Assembly (NCBI RefSeq): GCF_000317065.1
Contig: NC_019701.1
Location: 3,544,001 to 3,608,000 of the forward strand
Direction of reading: 5' to 3'
From: Pseudanabaena sp. PCC 7367
Lineage (GTDB): Bacteria > Cyanobacteriota > Cyanobacteriia > Pseudanabaenales > Pseudanabaenaceae
Length of the DNA stretch: 64,000 bases
In this document: positions 51,121 to 54,155 of the stretch, piece after piece
Layout: every line of letters starts with the position of its first letter
Numbering within the stretch: position 1 is the stretch's first letter
Notes under the pieces: model-generated
The model's database searches: none
What the model was told of the DNA's origin: nothing
What the model saw: the letters and a program-made list of their open reading frames with translations, nothing else
Translations under genes and position numbers: made by a program

Positions 51121-52590
51121 CTAACTGGAAAGCATTGGCTTTTTTTTATGCCAATCCGTTGATTGCTCATAACCATAGGCAACTTGTAGCAACACATCCT
51201 CACGCAGGGCGTTAGAAATCATCTGCAAACCGATCGGCATCCCCGCCGCATCAAACCCACAGGGCAAACTCAGGCCAGGTAAACCGGCCAGGTTGACGGG
51301 AATTGTCATTAAATCAGTTAAATACATACCCAGGGGATCTTCGGTCTTGGCACCAGCTTTGAAGGCGGTGGTGGGTGAAACCGGACTAACCAATACATCT
51401 ACTTGTTCAAAGGCGCGATCGAAATCTTGCCTGATCAGGGTGCGCACCTTTTGAGCTTTTAGATAATAGGCATCGTAATAACCTGCCGAAAGCGCGTAGG
51501 TACCGATCATGATCCGACGTTTTACTTCGGTGCCAAACCCGGTTTCTCTGGTCTGGGCATACATTTCCAGCAAATTATCAATATCCGGCTGCCGGAAACC
51601 ATATTTTACGCCGTCGTAGCGAGCCAAATTCGCCGAAGCCTCCGATGGAGCAATGATGTAGTAGGTGGGCAGGCCATAGGCAAACCGAGGGCAAGAAATT
51701 TCCTTGATCTCCGCGCCCATGGATTCCATGTGGGCGATCGTCTTCTTTACTGCCGCAGCCACTTCCTCGCTTAGTCCTTCACCAAAGGTTTCGGTGATCA
51801 CACCCACTTTCTTGCCCTTGAGCGATTGGGTTAAATCTGCCGTCAGCAGGTTAGGGTAATTAGGGATCGGCACATCCAGGCTGGTAGAATCCTGCGGATC
51901 ATGGCCAGCTAGAACAGACAACAGGGTGGCAGCATCCTTGACGGTGTTGGCAAAGGGGCCAATTTGATCCAAAGAGGAGGCAAAGGCCACCAGACCATAG
52001 CGCGAAACTAAGCCATAGGTAGGCTTGAGCCCGACCACACCGCAGAACGAGGCTGGCAATCGAATTGAGCCGCCCGTGTCTGAGCCCGTGGAAATCACGC
52101 ATTCTCCCGCTGCCACCGCCGCCGCCGATCCACCGGAAGACCCACCGGGCACACATTCAAGATTCCAGGGATTGGCCGTCGCGCCAAAGGCCGAGTTCTC
52201 AGTAGAGCTGCCCATCGCAAACTCATCCAGGTTGGCTTTACCGATCATCACTGCGCCAGCTTTGGCAATTTTAGCCGTCACCGTAGATTCATAGGGAGCC
52301 ACAAAATTAGCCAGCATATCTGAACCACAGGTGGTGAGGGTGCCCTTGACGCACATATTATCTTTGATGCCGATCGGGATACCTGCCAGTTTGGGCATTG
52401 GTTCTCCAGAGGCGATAATGTCATCGATCGCTTCGGCTTGGGCGATCGCTATTTCTGGGGTGAGATTAATAAAGCTATGGAGTTTTGGTTCAAGCGCTTG
52501 GGCGCGATCGATAAATTCTTGGGCAATTTCCACCGCCGAGCGATCGTGATTAACCAAGGCAGACTGGATTTCTTCAATTGTTGATAACAT
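51121..52590 (-). CDS. gatA: Glutamyl-tRNA(Gln) amidotransferase subunit A
   Basis: GatA is the amidase subunit that makes ammonia from glutamine for GatB to convert Glu-tRNA(Gln) to Gln-tRNA(Gln). The Ser-cis-Ser-Lys triad is visible: Lys in [10 protein letters not shown], the Gly/Ser-rich [16 protein letters not shown] and the nucleophile Ser in [14 protein letters not shown] start it at the ATG at 52590 ([16 protein letters not shown]), the usual N-terminus, giving 489 residues. An upstream ATG at 52647 would add 19 hydrophobic residues without homology. gatB and gatC are not in the window. Confidence 0.95.
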
Positions 52591-52680
52591 CGAGGATGAA
52601 TATATAGCTGGACAAGTGCATAGAAAGCAAATACAATATACCCGCAAATTAAGGTGTGATCTTGCCCTCTGGAGGTTATT

Positions 52681-53055
52681 ATTCCCGAACAGTTAACCCT
52701 TACAGTAAGTTTAAGAGGTAGCCGCGAAGTACGCGATAACTATCAAATATTTCGCCTTACTGGTTTGCTGGACGCATTTTCTGAGCCCGCCTTTCGTAAG
52801 GTGATTGGCAGATGCATTGATGATGGACCTGCCAACATTATTCTAGACCTATCGGCGATCGATTTTGTCGATAGTTCTGGTTTGGGGGTTCTGGTGCAGA
52901 TGGCTAAGAAAACCCAGTCATTAGATGGCTCCCTCCAAATTATTAGTAACCCCAGAGTGACGCAAACAGTCAAGCTGGTGCGCTTGGAGCAATTCCTCTC
53001 GCTTAGACCTTCCGTTGAAATAGCCCTGGCGAGCATACCGAATAAAAGTGAATAG
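52681..53055 (+). CDS. STAS-domain anti-sigma factor antagonist (SpoIIAA-like), probable ATT start
   Basis: The STAS domain starts with [32 protein letters not shown] and continues to [19 protein letters not shown], where the phosphorylatable Ser of DSSGLG sits, and the closing [11 protein letters not shown] helix. Such proteins bind an anti-sigma kinase and free the sigma factor; the Ser is phosphorylated by a kinase. The frame opens after a TGA at 52657 and has no ATG, GTG or TTG before 52765, which lies inside the domain. A GGAGG at 52671-52675 precedes ATT 52681, giving 124 residues. See findings. Confidence 0.82.
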
Positions 53056-53756: not shown

Positions 53757-54155
53757 ATGTCATTGCTACGTCCCAATATTGATGTTGATAAAATTGATGA
53801 AATATCGATCGCAGCCTTGGCTTATATTGGGGATGCGATCTATGAATTGCATGTCCGGCTCAACTTTTTAACCCCACCGCGATCGCCTAAGGAATATCAC
53901 CAATTGGTTGTATCGAGGGTAAAAGCCCAAAGCCAGGCCAATCAGTTGAACAAATTAATTGATAACCAATTTTTGAGTGAGTTAGAATTAGATCTGGTGC
54001 GGCGCGGACGCAATGCCACCACCTCTACACCCAGGCATATCAACCCGCAAACATACCGACTGGCCAGCGGTTTTGAAGCTTTGATTGGTTATTTATATTT
54101 AAAAGATCCCGATCGCCTCGTCCAAATATTGGCGCAAGCTGACAACATCCTATGA
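53757..54155 (+). CDS. mrnC: Mini-ribonuclease III
   Basis: The 132-residue protein is an RNase III domain without a double-strand RNA-binding domain. The catalytic box is at [16 protein letters not shown] (about 20-35), with the acidic Asp and Glu, and the second part [16 protein letters not shown] supplies the other acids. Mini-III matures 23S rRNA ends in Gram-positives and cyanobacteria. It overlaps rlmB by four bases (ATGA), so the two genes are translationally coupled. This neighbourhood supports a 23S role. Confidence 0.92.

Follow-up and report, generated by a model that had tools for sequence, protein, structure and literature searches.

The window, that is, the whole 64,000-nucleotide stretch of Pseudanabaena sp. 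PCC 7367 DNA analyzed here, contains a gene for a STAS-type anti-sigma factor antagonist that raises the question of how translation begins where no conventional start codon is at hand (Table 1). The STAS frame is open from ATT 52681 to a TAG stop codon at positions 53053 to 53055. A frame scan detected no in-frame ATG, GTG, or TTG between the TGA at 52657 and the TTG at 52765, so that this TTG is the first canonical codon, as the preliminary description of the locus had stated. The same description placed a GGAGG at 52671 and an ATT five bases on, and this is exactly what the sequence contains. Its further claim, that a start at TTG 52765 would cost the protein its first strand, stands with the refinement that the predicted protein begins some residues before VSLRGSREV. 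Comparison with orthologous loci indicates that ATT 52681 is almost certainly the translation start of the gene.

Table 1. Features of the STAS locus and its neighbors (window positions).
Feature	Position	Strand	Basis or remark
STAS anti-sigma factor antagonist gene	52681..53055	+	124 codons plus stop; Pfam STAS, TIGR00377, PDB relatives, residue numbering
In-frame TGA	52657..52659	+	Shuts the upstream reading frame; seen in the sequence
Shine-Dalgarno (SD) sequence GGAGGT	52671..52676	+	GGAGG core (52671-52675) ends 5 bases ahead of the start
Predicted start codon ATT	52681..52683	+	Column noncanonical in 280/282 distinct loci
TTG, earliest canonical in-frame start	52765..52767	+	N-terminal 28 codons lost; rejected as start
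Ser65-Ser66 of DSSGLG	52873..52878	+	Equivalent to phosphorylated S59/S60 of Ssr1600
Mini-RNase III-type gene (presumably mrnC)	53757..54155	+	Downstream neighbor
Amidase gene (presumably gatA type)	51121..52590	-	Divergent neighbor; ATG start inferred from N terminus MLSTIEE

Homologs were gathered from close relatives, a sample of the phylum, two families in depth, and named contigs. Removal of duplicates left 282 distinct loci, and the start codon was read by eye in four of them with small N-terminal length differences. The column aligned with the window ATT holds ATT in 208 loci, ATC in 45, ATA in 26, CTG in 1, ATG in 2, and GTG or TTG in none, counts that are not independent because the loci are kin to each other and were sampled unevenly. 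Its first base is A in 277 of 278 cases and its second base T in 278 of 278. Codons 2 to 6 vary mostly at the third base, as coding sequence does (codon 3, for instance, alternates between GAA and GAG), whereas codon 0, just 5′ of the start, is variable and preceded by the region that harbors the SD sequence. The preliminary description had called for a comparison of start codons among orthologs, and this comparison reveals a noncanonical column kept phylum-wide. Together with the coding-type variation and an SD sequence at fixed spacing, it bears out the proposed start at ATT. Such conservation of the column lies far beyond chance.

Among the genomes listed in the phylum sample, those of the same class all carry a match with one exception, and those outside it lack matches altogether. 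The exception (G155) is a 99% complete genome of that class, in which the gene was possibly lost or is missing from the assembly. Marine picocyanobacteria have ATC, ATT, or ATA at the start column, and ATT occurs in three loci that we take to be those of Gloeobacter violaceus PCC 7421 (L265), Thermosynechococcus BP-1 (L141), and Synechococcus JA-2-3B'a (L185). In the AT-rich loci L335 to L337, an in-frame stop immediately precedes ATC ATA, and the start may therefore be either of these codons, both noncanonical. The sole CTG locus (L191) has AAGGAGG upstream. Over the gene tree we counted at least 26 start-codon changes, of which a single one, in two related Chamaesiphon loci, leads to ATG. 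Selection has very probably kept the start noncanonical, and we propose from these alignments that this state may go back to the ancestor shared by all sampled cyanobacteria. No prior report of this start was found in the open-access literature, and an earlier report elsewhere is possible. An arXiv study reportedly treats genes that prefer non-AUG starts.

The lack of canonical alternatives extends well beyond the window. In 177 of 273 loci, the stretch from the preceding in-frame stop to codon 1 contains no ATG, GTG, or TTG, whereas the same stop-to-core scan left 0 of 28 infC and 1 of 137 mrnC control loci without a canonical start. A canonical codon is in frame upstream of the start column in 96 of the 273 loci, and dual starts are thus possible in some species. 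SD matches of at least 5 bases occur in 227 of 282 loci, compared with 1 of 28 infC loci and 0 of 35 long ORFs of the window, and the spacing between the SD sequence and codon 1 is 5 in 198 loci. In the window's own genome, the STAS paralogs and the four best-scoring HATPase candidates have an ATG available. We also considered whether cyanobacterial infC shares the rare start and rejected this, as canonical starts are available at the infC loci (L235 to L264; n = 28; ATG in 22, GTG in 4, and TTG in 2, by the scan rule). With a canonical start and almost never an SD sequence at infC, autoregulation of IF3 via a rare start seems to be absent from the sampled cyanobacteria.

The full STAS domain noted in the preliminary description was recovered with PF01740 (64 bits against a cutoff of 22.6; E value, 1.2e-17), the match beginning at codon 16. 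TIGR00377, the anti-sigma antagonist superfamily, scored 63.7 bits against a cutoff of 53.45 (E value, 1.3e-17), and the SpoIIAA equivalog model scored 45.6 bits, under its curated cutoff of 114.75. Among PDB structures, the relatives are anti-sigma factor antagonists such as SpoIIAA and TM1442, and a DSSGLG motif occupies codons 64 to 69. In Ssr1600 of Synechocystis, residues L24, G43, S59, and S60 have been reported, and S59 and S60 are phosphorylated (Kurkela et al. 2025, PMC12329169). These residues correspond to codons 30, 49, 65, and 66 of the window gene, with a constant offset of six, which suggests that the gene is the ortholog of ssr1600, as judged from published residue numbering rather than from the PCC 6803 sequence directly. 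Ssr1600 binds the anti-sigma factor/kinase Slr1861 and is phosphorylated by it, PmgA is cited as a further kinase, and SigC is, according to the authors, the most probable target (PMC12329169). In high CO2, low Ssr1600 rescued an rpoZ mutant, while excess Ssr1600 slowed growth there (PMC12329169). Candidate HATPase genes of the kinase/anti-sigma type are present in the window's genome, where two STAS matches and one HATPase gene are clustered (L008 and L355; G000:C2, ca. 4325337 to 4328974). This cluster resembles the icfG cluster described for Synechocystis, and L355 is a candidate Slr1861-type kinase. PmgA and Ssr1600 are also said to be the subject of Nakamura et al. 2024.

With a probability of roughly 0.7, we consider that a conserved noncanonical start, probably sensitive to initiation factor IF3, limits the production of the anti-sigma antagonist. 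The strong SD sequence would bring ribosomes to the ATT (AUU) start, and mispairing of AUU with the initiator tRNA would expose the 30S complexes to IF3. Since mispaired 30S complexes are targeted by IF3, output of the antagonist would be expected to be both low and IF3 dependent, and the protein would stay scarce relative to its own kinase. As the antagonist is proposed to free SigC from its inhibitor, growth control would thereby be tied to the state of translation initiation. IF3 represses infC in Escherichia coli and sigR in Streptomyces (PMC5472188), and the start codons found here avoid exactly ATG, GTG, and TTG, which makes control by IF3 the most likely meaning of the pattern. By analogy with these two genes, IF3 is the probable effector at this start. 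The link to initiation-factor fidelity suggested in the preliminary description is likewise plausible, and likelier in view of the strict avoidance of the three canonical codons. We regard only tentatively the idea that the start serves dynamic regulation over a fixed low setting. Somewhat more doubtful still is a wider scheme, in which placement of the rare start on the anti-SigC antagonist, and not on infC, would let the antagonist report the availability of IF3 or initiation complexes to the sigma network. A drop in fidelity would then raise the antagonist, free SigC, and restrain growth, an arrangement that would have been kept since the last common cyanobacterial ancestor.

The main competing explanation is that selection acts on scarcity of the antagonist as such, with a weak start and a strong SD sequence as one ancestral solution and the level of IF3 being uninformative. 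It has an appreciable, although lesser, chance of being correct. The growth effects of low and excess Ssr1600 in high CO2 accord with it, and so does Chamaesiphon, where the two sole ATG loci (L092 and L093) have both lost the SD sequence, while other loci of the genus retain AAGGAGG and ATC. The Chamaesiphon pattern looks like compensation, in which a weak start is paired with a strong SD sequence and a strong start with none, and ATG without an SD sequence fits a plain need for low expression and IF3 sensing equally. However, GTG, TTG, or a weaker SD sequence could serve scarcity too, yet neither GTG nor TTG appears as the start at any locus, whereas ATT, ATC, and ATA interchange often. This selective avoidance favors the IF3-sensitive start over scarcity alone.

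A second alternative concerns the position of the start itself. ssr1600 was published with a TTG initiation codon (PMC12329169), and the true start could be this TTG at codon 7, or TTG 52765, with the ATT region serving as a 5′ leader. A TTG start was used in the published construct, and in one genus three loci (L180, L187, and L284) have TTG at codon 7 with ATT six codons earlier, which is what an annotation in the manner of Ssr1600 would look like. Nevertheless, the window gene has CTT at codon 7, and a scan from the upstream stop through codon 7 finds no canonical start in 131 of 269 loci. The coding-like variation of codons 2 to 6 and the 5-base spacing of the SD sequence to codon 1 also speak against a leader, and initiation at TTG 52765 would cut off the beginning of the STAS match. 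A TTG start is hence very improbable, and we infer that the annotated start of Ssr1600 lies six codons too far downstream.

Initiation upstream of the TGA, whether through translational coupling with a preceding ORF or by a frameshift out of it, is more improbable still. Frames in Pseudanabaena do stay open further upstream, and the in-frame upstream canonical codons mentioned above would suit such a scheme, but an ORF of at least 80 codons that stops no more than 30 bases from the start was found in only 7 of 279 loci; therefore, translational coupling is not general. The upstream neighbor is not conserved either, as a gatA-type gene occurs at this place in 42 of 188 loci and is not kept beyond close relatives. 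In 73 loci an in-frame stop stands four codons upstream of the start, and L335 to L337 have one immediately ahead of the start region. Downstream, mrnC lies on the same strand in 177 of the 191 loci with enough flank, and about 700 bases separate it from the STAS gene in the window. The possibility that this genome carries a sequencing error or a pseudogene here, which no observation favors, is practically negligible given that the ATT column recurs in 208 of 282 loci from many families and assemblies and that the window frame is intact, with 68% identity to the L265 homolog.

To our knowledge, very few bacterial genes have a noncanonical start with a proven regulatory role, namely, infC and sigR. 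By comparison, the window gene likewise has a predicted start other than AUG, GUG, or UUG, and this state is conserved in its orthologs (280 of 282 loci). infC starts with AUU in E. coli or AUC in Streptomyces and is repressed by IF3 (PMC5472188). There, IF3 controls its own gene, whereas in the sampled cyanobacteria infC has a canonical start available and the rare start is on a regulator of a sigma pathway. The closer likeness is to Streptomyces sigR, which also encodes a sigma-pathway protein, combines a conserved noncanonical start (GTC) with a very strong RBS, yields a product scarce relative to its partner, and had its start misannotated; replacement with a canonical codon upsets the balance between sigma and anti-sigma factors (PMC5472188). 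sigR, however, encodes the sigma factor itself and is reported only within Streptomyces, whereas the cyanobacterial gene encodes an anti-sigma antagonist, uses AUU, AUC, or AUA without being tied to any one of them, and keeps this start phylum-wide. SpoIIAA and RsbV share the STAS fold and the DSSG serine motif, but the window gene is not beside a kinase gene and falls under the SpoIIAA equivalog cutoff. Ssr1600 of Synechocystis PCC 6803 appears to be the same protein by residue numbering and differs in its published start; the text consulted mentions neither an AUU start nor its conservation (PMC12329169).

The comparison made here shows the predicted start position, its conservation, the avoidance of ATG, GTG, and TTG, and the compensating SD sequence, whereas earlier work by others had established that Ssr1600 antagonizes Slr1861 and had named SigC as the likeliest target. 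That AUU, AUC, and AUA replace one another while AUG, GUG, and UUG are avoided, one clade excepted, argues with unusual strength for a role of the codon itself. This conservation suggests that start-codon proofreading deliberately holds production of the antagonist down. The annotated N terminus of Ssr1600 and its orthologs would be corrected, and in the published Ssr1600 overexpression construct the presumed native start would then have been replaced by ATG. The regulator bearing this rare start links light and carbon signals to growth, and the gene offers a direct way to test whether the choice of sigma factor responds to the fidelity of translation initiation.
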